From positions 2,728,001-2,792,000 of the forward strand of contig NZ_CP097332.1 in assembly GCF_023516435.1 (NCBI RefSeq): DNA of 64,000 nt, given 5' to 3'. The translations under genes were made by a program, and so were the position numbers. The notes beneath the pieces are model-generated. The model did no database searches. It saw only the letters and a program-made list of their open reading frames with translations, and was not told where the DNA came from. Positions 58,119 through 64,000 of this stretch are shown here, piece by piece. Every line of letters starts with the position of its first letter. Position 1 is the stretch's first letter. The stretch comes from Jatrophihabitans telluris. Its GTDB lineage: Bacteria; Actinomycetota; Actinomycetes; Mycobacteriales; Jatrophihabitantaceae.

Positions 58119-59315
58119 TCACCAGCCGAGGGCGGCGACCTCACCGATGACGACAACGGCCGGCGCCGTGAGCCGAGCCGACGCAACCGCCTCCACCAGC
58201 CCTGACAGTGGCGCCCGTACGACCTGCTGCCCCGGCAACGTCGCGCGGTGTATCGCGGCCGCGGGTGTGTGTGGGGGACGGCCGTGGCTGATCAGCTCCT
58301 CGACGATGCCCGCGAGGGTGTCCACGCCCATCAGGACGATCAGTGTGGCCGGCCCGACCGCGAGCTCGGCCCAATTCCATCCCGCCTCGGCCCGCCCTGG
58401 ATCGCGATGCCCCGACACCACTGCGAAATCGGCCGCGAGCCCCCGGTGCGTGACCGGGATTCCGGCCGCGGCGGGTGCAGCGACCGCGGAGGTGATGCCC
58501 GGGACCACGCTCACGTCCACCCCCGCGGACAGGCACGCGGCAACCTCCTCGCCACCCCGGCCGAACACGAACGGATCACCGCCCTTGAGCCGGACCACTC
58601 GCTTGCCCGCCAGCGCGCGCTCGACGATCACCGCGTTGATCTCGTCCTGGGTGAGGTTGTGCCGGTGCGCCGACTTCCCGCAGTCGATGATCTCGACCGA
58701 GGCGTCGAGCTGTTCGAGCAAGGCTCTGGGGGCGAGTCGGTCGGTGACCACGACGTCGGCCTCGAACACCAACCGCCGCCCGCGCACCGTGATCAGTTCG
58801 GGGTCGCCCGGCCCCCCACCCACCAGCGCGACGCTGCCCGCCGCAGCAGGTCGGGCAGGGCGGGCACCGAGGAGTCCGGTGTCCAGCGCGGCTGCGATCG
58901 CATTGCGCACGGCGACCGCCCGCCGCGGGTCATCGCCGGCGTTCACCGACAGGGTGAGGCCACCTGAGCGGAGGACTGACGGCACACGCGCGGTTCCGCC
59001 CGTCGCGTCGTCGGCACGGACGCAGAAGATCCGCCGCCGTTCGGCCTCAGCGGCCACCGCCGCGTTGACCTCGGGATCGTCGGTGGCGGCGACCACCAAC
59101 CACGCTCCGTCCAGGTCGCCGTCGACGAACGCCCGCACCTGCGACCGGACCCCTAGAGCGGTGATGGCAGGCGAGATGTTCGGGGCGATGACCGTCAGCC
59201 TCGCCCCGCCGGCAACGAGTCCTTCGACCCGCCGGGTCGCCACGCCGCCGCCGCCGACGACGACGACCAGACGATCAGTGAGATCCAGCAGCAGGGGGGA
59301 TCCGGTCACGCTCAC
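58119..59315 (-). CDS. cysG: Sirohaem synthase (CysG)
   Basis: Trifunctional enzyme making sirohaem, the cofactor of the sulfite reductase encoded at 62690. From GTG 59315 about 398 residues. N-terminal precorrin-2 dehydrogenase/ferrochelatase: LDLTDRLVVVVGGGGVATRR, LVVAATDDPEVNAAV, and FCVRADD; C-terminal uroporphyrinogen-III methyltransferase: SVALVGGGPGDPELITVRG, GKSAHRHNLTQDEIN, VRLKGGDPFVFGRGGEE, PGITSAVAAPAAAGIPVTHRG. The frame begins at 59351; the GTG at 59315 or 59309 is preferred, with no clear SD. 99 bp after cysN; end of the cys operon. Confidence 0.94.
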   Translation of the reverse strand: MSVTGSPLLLDLTDRLVVVVGGGGVATRRVEGLVAGGARLTVIAPNISPAITALGVRSQVRAFVDGDLDGAWLVVAATDDPEVNAAVAAEAERRRIFCVRADDATGGTARVPSVLRSGGLTLSVNAGDDPRRAVAVRNAIAAALDTGLLGARPARPAAAGSVALVGGGPGDPELITVRGRRLVFEADVVVTDRLAPRALLEQLDASVEIIDCGKSAHRHNLTQDEINAVIVERALAGKRVVRLKGGDPFVFGRGGEEVAACLSAGVDVSVVPGITSAVAAPAAAGIPVTHRGLAADFAVVSGHRDPGRAEAGWNWAELAVGPATLIVLMGVDTLAGIVEELISHGRPPHTPAAAIHRATLPGQQVVRAPLSGLVEAVASARLTAPAVVVIGEVAALGW

Positions 59316-59414
59316 GATTCTCGCGTGTCCAGCCGCCGCGCGGGCGAGCACTGCGAGCGGGTTGCTGAGGCGTGCGCGCGGGTCACCGGCCCGGCCGTGC
59401 GATGGCCGGACAAG

Positions 59415-60659
59415 TCAGTGCACGAGACCGGCGGCGACGGTCGCTCCACTGCTCTCGTCGACCAGCAGGAACGCCCCGGTGGAACGGTTGCGGACGTATG
59501 GATCGACCACGATCTGCTCGGCCAATCGGATCCGCACGCGGCCGATGTCGTTGAGTCCCATCTCGGCCGCCGCAATCGGCTGCACCGAGGCGATATCGAG
59601 CTTGGACTCGACCGCATCGACAACGGCCCGGACGTCGCGAGTGGTGTGCCGCAATTGGAAGCGATCCGCCGAACGCAACGGGCGGTCGGTCAGCCAGCAG
59701 AGAGTGGCCTCGATCTCGCGAGTCACCAGCGGAGCCGGCTCGCCGTCCACCACGATCTGGTCGCCGCGAGCGACGTCGATGTCATCGGTCAGCCTGACGG
59801 TGACCGAACGCCCTGCCCGCGCCGAGTCCAACTCGCCGGTCGGAGTATCGATTCCGGCCACCGTGGAGAATCGTCCGGACGGCAGGATCTGGACCTTGTC
59901 ACCTCGGCGTAGCACCCCGGCTTCCACCCGACCGGCATAGCCGCGATAGTCCGGGTAGTCCGAGCTGCGTGGCCGGATCACTACCTGCACCGGCAGCCGG
60001 GCCGGCAGATCGGGTCCCGCCGACGGTTCGACGGTCTCGAGGAACTCGAGCAGGGATTCACCCGAGTACCACGGCATATTCTCCGAACGGACGACCACGT
60101 TGTCACCCGCCAGCGCCGCGATCGGGATCGGAGTGAAGTGGTCCACGCCAAGGCTCGTGGCGGCCGCGGCGAAGTCGGCGACGATCTCGTCGAAGCGCGA
60201 CTCGGCGTAGCCCACCAGATCCATCTTGTTGACCGCGAGGACGATCTCGGAAACGCGGAGCAGCGACACCACCGCGAGATGGCGCTTGGTCTGCTCGACC
60301 ACACCCGACCGCGCATCGGCCAGGATCACCGCGACGTCAGCCGTGGATGCGCCGGTGACTGTGTTCCGGGTGTACTGCACGTGCCCTGGAGTGTCGGCCA
60401 GGATGAAAGTGCGCTTGGCAGTCGCGAAGTAGCGGTAGGCCACATCGATCGTGATGCCCTGCTCCCGCTCGGCCCGCAGGCCGTCCACGAGTAGAGCGAG
60501 GTCGGCGCCGGCGTACCCGCGCCGTTCCGAGGCCGCTTCGACCGCGGTCATCTGGTCGGCGAGAACCGCCTTGGCGTCGTGCAGCAAACGGCCGACCAAG
60601 GTGGACTTGCCGTCATCGACGGACCCTGCCGTGACCACCCGCAGCAAACCACCGGGCAT
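59415..60659 (-). CDS. cysN: Sulfate adenylyltransferase GTPase subunit
   Basis: EF-Tu-like GTPase that drives APS formation with CysD. The 414 residues have VTAGSVDDGKSTLVGRLL (P-loop), REQGITIDVAYRYF, LADTPGHVQY, and VNKMDLVG, followed by two beta-barrel domains. Unlike mycobacterial CysNC there is no APS kinase fusion; cysC is separate. Start overlaps the cysD stop by one base (TGATG). Confidence 0.96.
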   Translation of the reverse strand: MPGGLLRVVTAGSVDDGKSTLVGRLLHDAKAVLADQMTAVEAASERRGYAGADLALLVDGLRAEREQGITIDVAYRYFATAKRTFILADTPGHVQYTRNTVTGASTADVAVILADARSGVVEQTKRHLAVVSLLRVSEIVLAVNKMDLVGYAESRFDEIVADFAAAATSLGVDHFTPIPIAALAGDNVVVRSENMPWYSGESLLEFLETVEPSAGPDLPARLPVQVVIRPRSSDYPDYRGYAGRVEAGVLRRGDKVQILPSGRFSTVAGIDTPTGELDSARAGRSVTVRLTDDIDVARGDQIVVDGEPAPLVTREIEATLCWLTDRPLRSADRFQLRHTTRDVRAVVDAVESKLDIASVQPIAAAEMGLNDIGRVRIRLAEQIVVDPYVRNRSTGAFLLVDESSGATVAAGLVH

Positions 60660-61585
60660 CAGAAATAGCCCTGTCGTTTGCGATCTTCCATGGCGGCTTC
60701 ACTCGCGCGGTCATCGGCGCGGGTGGCGCCGCGCTCGGAGATGGTGCTGGCGGCGGTCTCGACGACGATGTCGGCCACGGTGCCCGCGGTCGAGGCGACC
60801 GCGCCGGTGCAGGTCGCATCCCCGACGGTGCGGTAGCGAACCGATTCGACGCGAGGGGTTTCGCCTTCCCGCACCGGGGTGAACTCGGTCACCGCGAGCA
60901 GCATTCCGTCCCGGTCTACGACCTCGCGTTCATGGGCGAAGTAGATGTCCGGAACCTCGATGCCTTCGTGCTCGATGTAGGCCCAGATGTCCAGTTCGGT
61001 CCAGTTGGACAGCGGGAAGATCCGGACGTGCTCGCCCCGGCGGTGGCGGCCGTTGTACAGGTCCCACAGTTCCGGGCGCTGATTGCGCGGATCCCACTGG
61101 CCGAAGTCGTCACGCACCGAGAAGACCCGCTCCTTGGCCCGCGCCTTTTCCTCGTCGCGGCGCGCGCCGCCGAGCACGGCGTCGAAGCCGTTCGAGGTGA
61201 TCGCGTCCAGCAACGGCACCGTTTGCAGAGGGTTTCGGGTCTGCCCGGCGGTCTCGGTGACCCGGCCGGAGTCGATCGCGTCCTGCACGCTCGCGACGAT
61301 GAGCTTGGCCCCCCACTCGGTGACCTTTCGATCGCGGTAGGCGATGACCTCGGCGAAGTTGTGGCCGGTGTCGACGTGCATCAGCGGGAAGGGCAGCCGG
61401 GTGGGCCAGAACGCCTTCATGGCCAAGTGGGCCATGACGATGGAGTCCTTGCCACCGGAGAAGAGCAGGACGGGGTTCTCGAACTGACCGAAGACCTCCC
61501 GGATGATGTGGATGGCCTCGTCCTCGAGGTCGGTCAGCCAGGCCCGCTCCAGGGAGCCCGACGGCGAACGCAACACCGCGGTCAT
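60659..61585 (-). CDS. cysD: Sulfate adenylyltransferase small subunit
   Basis: PP-loop ATP pyrophosphatase-like subunit that adenylates sulfate to APS. The 308 residues include PVLLFSGGKDSIVMAHLA (PP-loop), LMHVDTGHNFAEV, FDAVLGGARRDEEKARAKER, WTELDIWAYIE, RYRTVGDATCTGAV, and the conserved C-terminal RKRQGYF. ATG overlaps the cysC stop (ATGA). Confidence 0.97.
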   Translation of the reverse strand: MTAVLRSPSGSLERAWLTDLEDEAIHIIREVFGQFENPVLLFSGGKDSIVMAHLAMKAFWPTRLPFPLMHVDTGHNFAEVIAYRDRKVTEWGAKLIVASVQDAIDSGRVTETAGQTRNPLQTVPLLDAITSNGFDAVLGGARRDEEKARAKERVFSVRDDFGQWDPRNQRPELWDLYNGRHRRGEHVRIFPLSNWTELDIWAYIEHEGIEVPDIYFAHEREVVDRDGMLLAVTEFTPVREGETPRVESVRYRTVGDATCTGAVASTAGTVADIVVETAASTISERGATRADDRASEAAMEDRKRQGYF

Positions 61586-62145
61586 AGCAAATTCTCCTTC
61601 TCCAGCAGTGAAATCAGTTCATCGACGGTGTCGGACACGGTCCGGCCGCTGGTGTCGACGATCAGCTCGGGTTGCAGCGGGGGCTCGTACTCGCCGCCTG
61701 GTCCGCCGGTCCCGGTCAGGCCCTGCATGCCTCCCTCACGCTGTTTGGCGTAGAGGCCTTTCACATCGCGCTCGGCGCAGACATCGACCGCGGTCGCCAC
61801 GTGGATCTCGAGGAAGGGCACCCCGGCCGACTCGTGCAGCGTGCGGACACTGTCGCGCGCCGCCGCGAACGGCGAGACGACCGCGGCCAAAGTGAGCACG
61901 CCGTTGCGCGACAGCAGGGAAGAAACCCAGCCGATCCGCGCCACGTTGGCGTCCCGGTCCGCCCTGCTGTAGCCGAGTTCCGGAGACAGCACCGGCCGGA
62001 CGGCGTCTCCGTCGAGGATCTCCACCCGCCGGTCGTGCTCGGACAGGCGTTCGGCCAGCGCGGTGGCCAGGGTGGTCTTTCCGGCGCTGGGCAGCCCGGT
62101 GAACCACAGGGTGGCTCCGGTGCGGGTCTCGACGGAGACGGTCAT
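61582..62145 (-). CDS. cysC: Adenylylsulfate (APS) kinase
   Basis: Phosphorylates APS to PAPS. The 187 residues have Walker A LWFTGLPSAGKTTLATAL, EILDGDAVRPVLSPELGYSRADRDANVARIG, the APS-binding VVSPFAAARDSVR, FLEIHVATAVDVCAERDVKGLYAK, and GGEYEPPLQPELIVDTS. First structural gene of the cysC-cysD-cysN-cysG unit, 145 bp after the leader peptide. An APS kinase in this cluster suggests PAPS formation for sulfation or for a PAPS-specific reductase. Confidence 0.96.
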   Translation of the reverse strand: MTVSVETRTGATLWFTGLPSAGKTTLATALAERLSEHDRRVEILDGDAVRPVLSPELGYSRADRDANVARIGWVSSLLSRNGVLTLAAVVSPFAAARDSVRTLHESAGVPFLEIHVATAVDVCAERDVKGLYAKQREGGMQGLTGTGGPGGEYEPPLQPELIVDTSGRTVSDTVDELISLLEKENLL

Positions 62146-62290
62146 CGGTGGTGGGGTCCTGATCAGTCGGCGTGATCTCAGCGATCATGTCTGCGGTGGC
62201 AGCAGCCTTCGACCGCGCAGCACTGCACGGCGGGCGGGGCCCGGACATGGGGTACGGCTGGCGATCCTCAGCGGGATCGCGGCAAAGCCG

Positions 62291-62368
62291 TCAGGACATT
62301 CGACATGCCGCGCTGACGACGCGCTGCAAATCGACATGCAGGCGAGCGACCAACGGGACGGATGGCAT
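62291..62368 (-). CDS. Leader peptide upstream of cysCDNG (25 aa)
   Basis: Short ORF with ATG 62368 and TGA 62291-62293. It contains RLHVDLQRVVSAAC, matching the R-x-H-V-D-L-x-R-x-x-S-A-x-C pattern of peptides annotated as putative leader peptides near sulfur genes in streptomycetes and other actinobacteria. No Shine-Dalgarno is present; a CACACT -10 lies six bases before the ATG, with TTGGGA 18 bp upstream, so translation is likely leaderless. The cysteine is near the C-terminus and would let ribosomes sense Cys-tRNA. cysC begins 145 bp downstream. Confidence 0.8.
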   Translation of the reverse strand: MPSVPLVARLHVDLQRVVSAACRMS

Positions 62369-62374
62369 GCCAAC

Positions 62375-62404
62375 AGTGTGACACAACCGCCAGTGACCTC
62401 CCAA
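62375..62404 (-). promoter_or_regulatory. Candidate promoter of the cysC leader peptide
   Basis: On the minus strand TTGGGA (62404-62399), 18-bp spacer, CACACT (62380-62375), then six bases to the leader ATG at 62368. Spacing fits a leaderless mRNA. Confidence 0.55.
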
Positions 62405-62500
62405 CCGTCGGCAGCGAGACCTTCCTCTCGTTGAGCGCTCTCGTTCAGCGCTCCCCGAAGCCCGATCGGGGCGTGCGCGAACCTGTCCCCGGGGATGTGA

Positions 62501-62512
62501 CACCATCATCAG
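62501..62512 (+). promoter_or_regulatory. Candidate -10 of the sulfite reductase leader peptide
   Basis: CACCAT (62501-62506) followed by six bases and the GTG of the leader peptide. Mirrors the -10 of the divergent leader (CACACT, six bases, ATG). No clear -35 is seen. Confidence 0.45.
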
Positions 62513-62587
62513 GTGCGTTCGGCCGGTGACCTGCTGACCTCGCGTCGCCACATCGATCTGGTTCGGGTGGCCGGCGCGAGCTGTTGA
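62513..62587 (+). CDS. Leader peptide upstream of sulfite reductase (24 aa)
   Basis: GTG 62513 to TGA 62585-62587. It contains RRHIDLVRVAGASC and stops right after this cysteine. It aligns with the divergent leader peptide position by position (R-x-H-[VI]-D-L-x-R-V-x-x-A-x-C). No Shine-Dalgarno; the GTG is six bases from CACCAT, so it may be leaderless. The sulfite reductase start is 102 bp further on. Too short to be called by ordinary gene finders. Confidence 0.8.
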   Translation: MRSAGDLLTSRRHIDLVRVAGASC

Positions 62588-62689
62588 CGTCCGCCGCAGT
62601 ACGTCGTCCCACTCATGGGGTCGCGCCCTCGTCCCGCCCGGAACCTGCCGCGCCGCGCCCCGTTCCACCTTTGGAAGGACCGACCGCGA

Positions 62690-64000
62690 ATGGCAGCGGG
62701 TAAAGGACAAGGACAGTGGAAGCTCGGATATCGCGAGCCGCTGAATCCCAACGAGCGCAGCAAGCGCGACAACGACGGCCTGCTCGTCAAGCAGCGCATC
62801 ATCGACATCTACCAGTACACGGGCTTCGACGGCATCGATCCCGGCGACCTGCGCGGCCGCTTCCGCTGGTACGGCTTGTACACCCAGCGAGCCCAGGGCA
62901 TCCCGGGCGGGCGCACCGCGATCCTGGAGCCGGAGGAGCTCGAGGATCGGTTCTTCATGTTGCGGGTCCGGATCGACGGGGGCCAGCTCACGAGTGAGCA
63001 ACTGGCCGTCATCGGTGAGATCTCCACGACCTACGGCCGCGACGTCGCCGACATCACCGACCGCCAGAACGTTCAGCTGCACTGGATCCGGGTGGAGGAC
63101 GTCCCGACGATCTGGGAGAAGCTCGAGGCGGTCGGACTCGACACCACCGAAGCCTGTGGGGACACTCCTCGCGTCATGCTCGGCTGCCCTTTGGAGGGCG
63201 TTGCCGCCGACCACATCCTCGACGCGGGTCCAGCCCTGCGTGCCACCGTGGAGAAGTACGTCGGCGATCCCGCGTTCTCGAACCTGCCGCGCAAGTTCAA
63301 GACCTCGATCTCCGGCTGCACCCAGCACTGCACGAACCACGAGATCAACGACGTCTCATTCGTCGGCGTCCTAGGTCCGGACGGCACGCCGGGCTTCGAC
63401 CTGTGGGTGGGCGGTGGACTCTCGACCAACCCGATGTTCGCCAAGCGACTCGGAGTGTTTGTCCGTGAGGACGAGGTGGGCGACGTCTGGGCCGGGGTGT
63501 GCTCGATCTTCCGTGACTACGGCTACCGGCGCTCGCGCAATCACGCCCGGATCAAGTTCCTGATGGCCGACTGGGGTCCGGAGAAGTTCCGGCAGGTTCT
63601 TGAGGACGAATATCTCGGGCACACCCTGCCGGACGGCCCCGCGCCACCGGCCTCGCCCTCACACCGCGACCACATCGGCCTCATCCCGCAGGCCGACGGG
63701 CTGACCGCGGTCGGCGCCACCACCAAGTCCGGCCGAACCAGTGGGCGGGCCCTCAGCGAGATCGCCGCGCTCGCGGCCGAGTTCGGCACGGCCGGAGGCC
63801 GGGTCAGGACGACGGCACAGCAAGGTCTGGTGGTGCTCGACATTCCGGCCGCGAAGGCCGAGGACGTCGCCGACCGCCTCGAACTGTTGGGCTTGTCGGC
63901 CCGCCCGTCCATCTTCCACCGCGGCACCATCGCCTGCACCGGCATCGAGTTCTGCAAACTCGCCATCGTCGAGACCAAGGCGAGGGCCGAGACGATCCGT
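62690..64000 (+). CDS. sirA: Ferredoxin-sulfite/nitrite reductase, sirohaem type (partial, 3' end beyond window)
   Basis: 437 codons in window, no stop reached; family length is about 555. Reduces sulfite to sulfide with ferredoxin electrons using sirohaem and a 4Fe-4S cluster. Seen: WYGLYTQRAQGIPGG, LRVRIDGGQLTSEQL, ADITDRQNVQLHWIRVED, EACGDTPRVMLGCPLEG, LPRKFKTSISGC, HEINDVSFVGV, GFDLWVGGGLSTNPMFA, KFLMADWGPEKFRQVLEDEY, and the first cluster/sirohaem cysteines in ACTGIEFCKLA (Cys416, Cys422). The second pair lies past the edge. A sulfite role is favoured over nitrite because of the cys genes opposite. AAGGA lies 11 bases before ATG 62690. Confidence 0.93.
   Translation, partial: MAAGKGQGQWKLGYREPLNPNERSKRDNDGLLVKQRIIDIYQYTGFDGIDPGDLRGRFRWYGLYTQRAQGIPGGRTAILEPEELEDRFFMLRVRIDGGQLTSEQLAVIGEISTTYGRDVADITDRQNVQLHWIRVEDVPTIWEKLEAVGLDTTEACGDTPRVMLGCPLEGVAADHILDAGPALRATVEKYVGDPAFSNLPRKFKTSISGCTQHCTNHEINDVSFVGVLGPDGTPGFDLWVGGGLSTNPMFAKRLGVFVREDEVGDVWAGVCSIFRDYGYRRSRNHARIKFLMADWGPEKFRQVLEDEYLGHTLPDGPAPPASPSHRDHIGLIPQADGLTAVGATTKSGRTSGRALSEIAALAAEFGTAGGRVRTTAQQGLVVLDIPAAKAEDVADRLELLGLSARPSIFHRGTIACTGIEFCKLAIVETKARAETIR

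Follow-up and report, generated by a model that had tools for sequence, protein, structure and literature searches.

A divergent pair of single-cysteine leader peptide ORFs between cysC and sirA of Jatrophihabitans telluris: likely cysteine-responsive attenuators with a rare TGT codon

Background

How one codon can report cysteine supply is the question raised by leader peptides that contain a single cysteine. Two candidate leaders of this kind lie back to back in the gap between cysC and sirA in Jatrophihabitans telluris, within the window analysed here, which is the whole stretch of 64,000 nucleotides taken from contig NZ_CP097332.1. Conserved small leaderless ORFs located 5' of nirA/Msmeg_4527 and cysA2, together with ribosome occupancy at cysA2, are described in Shell 2015 (PMC4633059), and PMC9031893 and PMC13236596 credit Canestrari 2020 with cysteine-dependent attenuation of downstream translation in Mycobacterium smegmatis.

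Results and discussion

The two ORFs and their gene neighbours

A first-pass annotation of the window had claimed that the gap contains two tiny ORFs, one per strand, sharing a motif, each with a -10-like hexamer exactly six bases 5' of its start codon, no Shine-Dalgarno sequence and a sulfate-assimilation gene downstream, and all of this was borne out, including coordinates and lengths. The minus-strand ORF (62368-62291; ATG 62368, stop 62291) encodes the 25-aa peptide MPSVPLVARLHVDLQRVVSAACRMS, and the plus-strand ORF (62513-62587; GTG 62513, stop 62587) the 24-aa peptide MRSAGDLLTSRRHIDLVRVAGASC. Both peptides contain R-x-H-[VI]-D-L-x-R-V-x-x-A-x-C, and each has a single Cys codon, written TGT, with no cysteine run in either. 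On inspection of the sequence, no Shine-Dalgarno element is visible upstream of either start codon, and the hexamers are CACACT and CACCAT. From the stop codon of the minus-strand ORF to the cysC start (ATG 62145, minus strand) there are 145 nt, and from that of the plus-strand ORF to the sirA start (ATG 62690, plus strand) 102 nt. The gene that we presume to be sirA is named from its Pfam class (NIR_SIR); no curated NCBIfam cut-off was passed. The features are as follows.

62291-62368, minus strand: putative leader peptide ORF for cysC-cysD-cysN-cysG, 25 aa, one Cys (TGT); NF042934 30.4 bits, core kept in relatives
62513-62587, plus strand: putative leader peptide ORF for sirA-cysH, 24 aa, Cys TGT directly before TGA; NF042934 36.7 bits, core kept in relatives
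62375-62380, minus strand: -10-like hexamer CACACT, ending 6 nt before the start codon, preceded by TGT (extended -10-like TGN); from the sequence and the spacing in relatives
62501-62506, plus strand: -10-like hexamer CACCAT, ending 6 nt before the start codon, preceded by TGA (extended -10-like TGN); from the sequence and the spacing in relatives
62369-62512, no strand: putative divergent promoter region common to both arms, 144 bp from start codon to start codon (computed distance)
62146-62290, minus strand: spacer from the leader stop to the cysC start, without a terminator-like site (sequence, terminator scan)
62588-62689, plus strand: spacer from the leader stop to the sirA start, C-rich and G-poor (first 86 nt: C 0.48, G 0.27), without a terminator-like site
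61582-62145, minus strand: cysC, adenylylsulfate kinase (Pfam APS_kinase; TIGR00455 over cut-off)
60659-61585, minus strand: cysD, sulfate adenylyltransferase small subunit (TIGR02039 over cut-off)
59415-60659, minus strand: cysN, sulfate adenylyltransferase large subunit (TIGR02034 over cut-off)
58119-59351, minus strand: CysG, siroheme synthase-like, uroporphyrinogen methylase plus NAD-binding domain (TIGR01469 and TIGR01470 over cut-off)
62690-64000, plus strand: presumed sirA, assimilatory sulfite reductase class, running past the window end (Pfam NIR_SIR)
L173:7970-8776, plus strand: cysH, 3' of sirA and outside the window (TIGR00434 over cut-off)

Family membership

The assignment of both ORFs to a putative leader peptide family, also made by the first-pass annotation, holds: both exceed the curated cut-off of 27 bits of NF042934 ("putative leader peptide"), the minus-strand ORF with 30.4 and the plus-strand ORF with 36.7 bits, and in a whole-genome profile search the pair is again over the cut-off, with 28.6 and 34.8 bits. 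Three places in the 4.19 Mb genome lie above this cut-off, and two of them are the window pair. The model of the Cys-rich Ms4527A leader (NF042936) matches the two ORFs with 32.2 and 21.3 bits (E 5.7e-8 and 1.4e-4), although its cut-off of 45 bits is reached by neither, and the plus-strand ORF also matches the Ms5788A leader model, below the cut-off of that model. An 18-residue position matrix, trained on the leaders of relatives with the window leaders outside the training set, gave the latter scores of 44.9 and 47.7, while 2 Mb of order-1 Markov DNA yielded two matches of at least 12 and none of at least 15. A search of positions 61900-62900 for Rfam RNA families rendered no match up to E 1.

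Two other matches in the same genome are also sulfur-related. One leader (L002:1456-1569, G000:405605-405718), which is the third place above the NF042934 cut-off, lies 5' of a rhodanese-family gene, starts at ATG 1456 or 1495 and has three Cys codons (TGC, TGC, TGT); from ATG 1495 it scores 40.1 bits with the Ms5788A model, just under the cut-off of 45. The other is a weak leader-like match of 17.9 bits (L004:1501-1557, G000:4140127-4140183) at the 5' end of a TauE/SafE-like permease gene, with TGC as the Cys codon at position 18.

Probable leaderless starts

The first-pass annotation took both ORFs to be leaderless, and comparison with relatives is in favour of this. Sorted by the in-frame ATG or GTG codons in reach, 112 leaders (L067 and L065 dropped) comprise 40 with a single possible start, 68 with several and four with none. 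A hexamer of the form NA...T is found 5' of the start in 40/40 single-start leaders, ending 6 nt (28 leaders) or 7 nt (12) away, and at each of the other spacings from 0 to 14 such a hexamer occurs in 0 to 4 of the 40. Of these single-start leaders, 93% have G at -14 and 62% have T at -15, as in an extended -10 element, and seven have a Shine-Dalgarno-like 4-mer. The 68 leaders with several starts, judged by eye, all have one or more starts that follow such a hexamer by 5-8 nt, and all 15 twin loci inspected (L099 and L183 belonging to one genome) have such a hexamer 6-8 nt from the start on either arm. In positions 62100-62750, no sigma-70 promoter was found by a strict scan that requires both hexamers, so that the promoter assignment rests on the -10-like hexamers and on the comparison. 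The fixed -10 spacing in relatives supports the view that these leaders would be transcribed and translated without a 5' untranslated region.

Spread of the sirA leader and of the divergent pair

A scan based on sirA rendered 80 named loci, which are the best 80 of 582 relatives and over-represent near kin, and a sirA-arm leader was detected with the position matrix in 78 of these 80. The exceptions are L110, which has no leader, and L096, which has one on the divergent strand only; the lowest sirA-arm score is 22.2, for the degenerate leader of L067, and the leader of L095 lacks Cys. Five loci (L065, L066, L068, L069 and L074) lie on the same contigs as other loci and were not counted for the sirA arm, and L035 was set aside because its sirA match is cut. 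A further set of 29 loci (L006-L034), drawn from the genome of the window and from further relatives, has the sirA leader in 26, with L015, L017 and L018 lacking it. Given these two counts, nearly all loci seen have the sirA leader. The closest named sirA sequences among the matches listed belong to Pseudonocardiales and Frankiales metagenome-assembled genomes (80-86% identity), and that of a Jatrophihabitans metagenome-assembled genome has 74%.

Two divergent copies sharing one gap had been considered unusual by the first-pass annotation, which proposed a search for paired leaders in related cysC/sirA gaps. That search contradicts the impression of rarity. In 11 distinct loci with cysC divergent and at most 1 kb from sirA, a cysC-arm leader is present in 10, a sirA-arm leader in eight and both in seven (7/11), a count that leaves out the duplicate L065 and the loci L179-L182 of another bacterial family of the order (f9), which had been chosen for having pairs. 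The cysC leader is kept and the sirA leader not detected in L015, L017 and L018, and the reverse is the case in L029. Both leaders persist at separations of about 1.6 and 2.9 kb in L177 and L178, respectively, the sirA-arm leader of L177 being the degenerate one. Pairs also occur with other neighbours: in L174 the divergent gene is cysD, with cysC not detected, and in L081 and L115 it is a putative sirohydrochlorin-chelatase-like gene. In family f9 the pairs of L179-L183 have 39-66 bp between the start codons (these loci were picked for paired matches, and L183 and L099 are one genome), and 9 of the 24 f9 genomes have opposite-strand matches less than 200 bp apart, by positions in the match listing. 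The divergent pair is therefore a recurring layout. The palindrome CACAGCGCTGTG is the meeting point of the two extended -10 elements in L182 (3055-3222), where simultaneous use of both promoters would thus hardly be possible. Among the top-ranked entries of an open-access literature collection, no printed report of divergent leader pairs was found.

In one relative (L027, genome G034) the two leader types are swapped relative to the window: the LTSRRHVDL type belongs to the cysC arm and the LVARLHVDL type to the sirA arm.

The TGT codon at the conserved cysteine

Of 106 unique cores, 95 have TGT as the conserved Cys codon, which stands at position 18 of the core. Arm by arm, TGT is found in 85 of 99 sirA-arm rows, with TGC in 13 and no Cys in one (L095), and in all 15 divergent-arm rows; each set holds one duplicate (L067 repeats L010 in the 99 rows and L065 repeats L007 in the 15), and the figure of 106 removes repeats. 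The sirA coding sequences of the same loci use TGT for only 33 of 579 cysteine codons. The preference is specific for the position: in cores with several Cys codons, codon 18 is TGT in 30 and TGC in one, while the remaining Cys codons are TGC in 43 cases and TGT in 14. Among the other NNY codons of the cores (His, Asp, Phe, Tyr, Ser AGY, Asn), 339 of 426 have C as the third base. Outside these sets, 32 of 33 additional unique cores (other genes, f9 sulfur loci) have TGT. The 13 rows with TGC (L033, L114, L117, L119, L122-L124, L126, L127, L130, L138, L142, L143) seem to represent one Pseudonocardiaceae group; given these rows and L095, neither TGT nor Cys is absolute. ARAGORN, run on 30 loci around tRNA matches (46 matches overall), found one tRNA-Cys gene, whose GCA anticodon would recognise UGU through wobble pairing. 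No printed report of a TGT/UGU bias was found among the top-ranked entries of an open-access literature collection. What is new here is that a rare TGT stands nearly always at the conserved Cys codon, and this hints at the mechanism.

Proposed attenuation by cysteine supply

The reading that we favour, with a probability of roughly 0.7, is that both ORFs are translated leader peptides with leaderless starts, each acting as the cysteine-supply sensor of its own operon. By homology to the mycobacterial leaders, regulation is likely to take place by cysteine-responsive attenuation. As suggested by the fixed -10 spacing, transcription would start at the start codon or 1-2 bases from it, and the ribosome would load at the 5' end and make the core R-[RL]-H-[VI]-D-L-x-R-V-x-x-A-x-C. 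With charged tRNA-Cys in short supply, it would pause at the Cys codon, a rare TGT, and the paused ribosome would alter the fate of the spacer RNA, allowing cysCDN-cysG or sirA-cysH to be expressed; with no pause, the operon would be held down. The ribosome's wait for cysteine probably sets both operons: since the two leaders in the one gap would control opposite strands independently, one signal could reach both arms of sulfate assimilation. Both arms would then have separate sensors of the same kind, a provision made repeatedly and with different neighbour genes. Counting against attenuation is the single Cys codon per leader, as compared with the cysteine run of the tested mycobacterial leaders. 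How one codon could suffice has two testable answers: slow decoding, suggested by the position-specific TGT, and nascent-chain arrest, suggested by the conserved peptide.

The output step

The output that follows the pause could be either the unmasking of a ribosome-binding site (RBS) or relief from Rho-dependent termination. For the mycobacterial polycysteine leaders, Canestrari and colleagues reportedly found that stalling of the ribosome within the Cys tract blocks structures that hide the next RBS. Unmasking of this kind, with the stalled ribosome preventing a hairpin from hiding the downstream RBS, may operate here too; we give it somewhat less than an even chance. In three relatives (L011, L012 and L013) a CCCTT-type tract just 3' of the leader stop is complementary to a GAAGGG RBS, and masking of the Cys codon frees the RBS in L012 (16.3 to 7.7 kcal/mol) and L013 (12.9 to 3.2 kcal/mol), but brings no relief in L011 (11.5 to 11.6) and does not open the RBS of the window sirA leader (5.5 to 6.5 kcal/mol). 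Over the 95 loci that could be placed (L030 had no start, and L010, L067 and L095 were dropped), a decrease of at least 1 kcal/mol was found in 31, against 241 of 950 shuffles, and the mean of 0.65 against 0.30 is barely above them; the starts in this test were picked by rule as having the best Shine-Dalgarno sequence in frame, which seems to have chosen wrongly in L007 and L144. When stalling was scanned codon by codon in 94 loci, with the starts of L007 and L144 changed and L008 dropped as a near-duplicate, the peak was at codon 18 with a mean of 0.71, but codon 7 reaches 0.61. In the same scan the window sirA leader showed no relief, and the window cysC leader had 1.8 kcal/mol at codon 18 but a higher value, 2.6, at codon 6. 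Folding of leader plus spacer was no better for the two window transcripts than for shuffles (z -0.07 and -0.48).

It can also be the case that Rho loads on the spacer and that a ribosome pausing where the leader ends shields this region, a tentative reading that we place clearly below an even chance. The absence of any intrinsic terminator found in positions 62100-62750 favours it, and a C-rich, G-poor spacer would also fit Rho. C exceeds G in the spacer of 91 of 92 sirA-arm loci (mean skew 0.205; L007, L008 and L144 dropped in addition to L010, L067 and L095), as compared with 31 of 92 for stretches 5' of the leader and 99 of 205 for generic upstream regions (mean 0.001). Rho was proposed for terminator-less mycobacterial cys leaders in Seliverstov 2005 (PMC1262725), where the authors' own prediction is called weak. 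On the other hand, the generic-region control is loose, because it was built on heuristic gene calls and includes untranscribed promoter DNA, and the spacer of L009 has the opposite skew. It also counts against Rho that a tested leader of the Canestrari study reportedly works by RBS sequestration. If Rho is the output, these leaders would be a simple natural system for testing how ribosomes and Rho compete on leaderless messages.

Selection on the peptide and further readings

The motif had been expected to be conserved in close relatives, and so it is: the core is kept and under purifying selection in about 100 leaders. The sirA arm, with 1252 pairs among 90 unique cores (L010, L067 and L095 dropped), has an omega of 0.31, and the divergent arm, with 75 pairs among 14 cores, one of 0.19, the pairs being non-independent in both. 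The invariant Arg5 is encoded by four codons in the 106 unique cores (CGC 59, CGT 19, CGA 16, CGG 12), and the third base of Leu, Val and Ala is also variable. Compared with synonymous recodings (L010, L067 and L095 dropped from the sirA-arm cores), the cores fold with a mean z of -0.75, with 18 of 104 at p ≤0.05 and none at ≥0.95; the excess is clear for the window sirA leader (z -2.61) and for L011 and L012, and absent for the window cysC leader (z -0.13). The codon variety, the omega values and the modest fold excess together indicate that the peptide is what is kept, with some constraint at the RNA level in part of the set. A conserved RNA fold had been considered as well, as alignment folds gave strong z values against shuffled columns, but the synonymous test rendered only the modest excess mentioned; since the shuffled-column null ignores coding constraint, no such fold is claimed.

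Selection at the peptide level bears on a rival in which codon supply is not the sole sensor: the exit tunnel would read the core, and the nascent chain together with cysteine or another sulfur metabolite would stall the ribosome at the Cys or the stop codon. A sensor based on the codon alone needs no conserved neighbours, and yet R5, H7, D9, R12, V13 and A16 are kept. Moreover, if Cys18 occupies the A site and residue 17, in the P site, is taken as the reference, the distances of R5, D9 and R12 are -12, -8 and -5. The functional residues W12, D16 and I19 of TnaC have the same distances from P24 (positions from PMC3902921), a match that was noticed post hoc and in one peptide only. The conserved residues and this spacing make nascent-chain arrest a rival worth weighing, but we consider it unlikely, as the TGT preference points to decoding speed and the mycobacterial leaders have cysteine runs, with elongation described in PMC9031893 as depending on cysteine availability. 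An extension of this idea, equally doubtful to us, is that the core might be a cysteine-tuned arrest peptide across actinobacteria that combines codon and nascent-chain sensing; a tunnel-facing motif and a near-obligatory slow UGU at a fixed position would then make one Cys codon enough, and the divergent pairs, down to 39 bp in one family, would be a bidirectional leaderless switch. That the ORFs are not functional peptides, and are open by chance over DNA conserved as an RNA hairpin or a promoter element, would agree with the somewhat better fold than synonymous recodings, clear in the window sirA leader, L011 and L012, but is highly improbable in view of omega below 0.35 on both arms, the four codons for an invariant Arg5, the start codon at a fixed distance from the -10 hexamer, and the window cysC-arm core without any excess of fold.

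Comparison with known systems

Cysteine-supply sensing by leaderless leader peptides, the reading preferred here, can be set beside several described elements. NF042934 has the same core and sulfur genes downstream, and its cut-off is passed by both window ORFs; its entry line names neither a mechanism nor paired use. The Ms4527A leader (NF042936), found in mycobacteria 5' of sirA/nirA, has the same downstream gene class and the same core as the window leaders, but is Cys-rich, while the window leaders have one Cys codon each; one relative (L034) has a cysteine cluster 5' of sirA. The arrest peptide TnaC (PMC3902921) resembles the leader core in having functional residues at -12, -8 and -5 from the stall residue, as for R5, D9 and R12, and differs in sensing free tryptophan and in being gamma-proteobacterial. 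A cysteine attenuator of cysS in Rhodobacterales, which according to PMC8632094 has mostly UGC codons and a terminator, is a different element.

The Cys leaders predicted by Seliverstov et al. 2005 (PMC1262725) precede actinobacterial cys operons and are short ORFs with no terminator, as here, but have runs of Cys codons near the stop and come from other genomes. The polycysteine ORFs of M. smegmatis (Canestrari et al. 2020) are leaderless, as the window leaders probably are, and like these located 5' of cysteine-pathway operons, with cysteine as the likely signal in both; they have a cysteine run, whereas the window leaders have no run and form a divergent pair. We conclude that the leaders described here are a single-cysteine, paired variant of an already known kind of actinobacterial attenuator.
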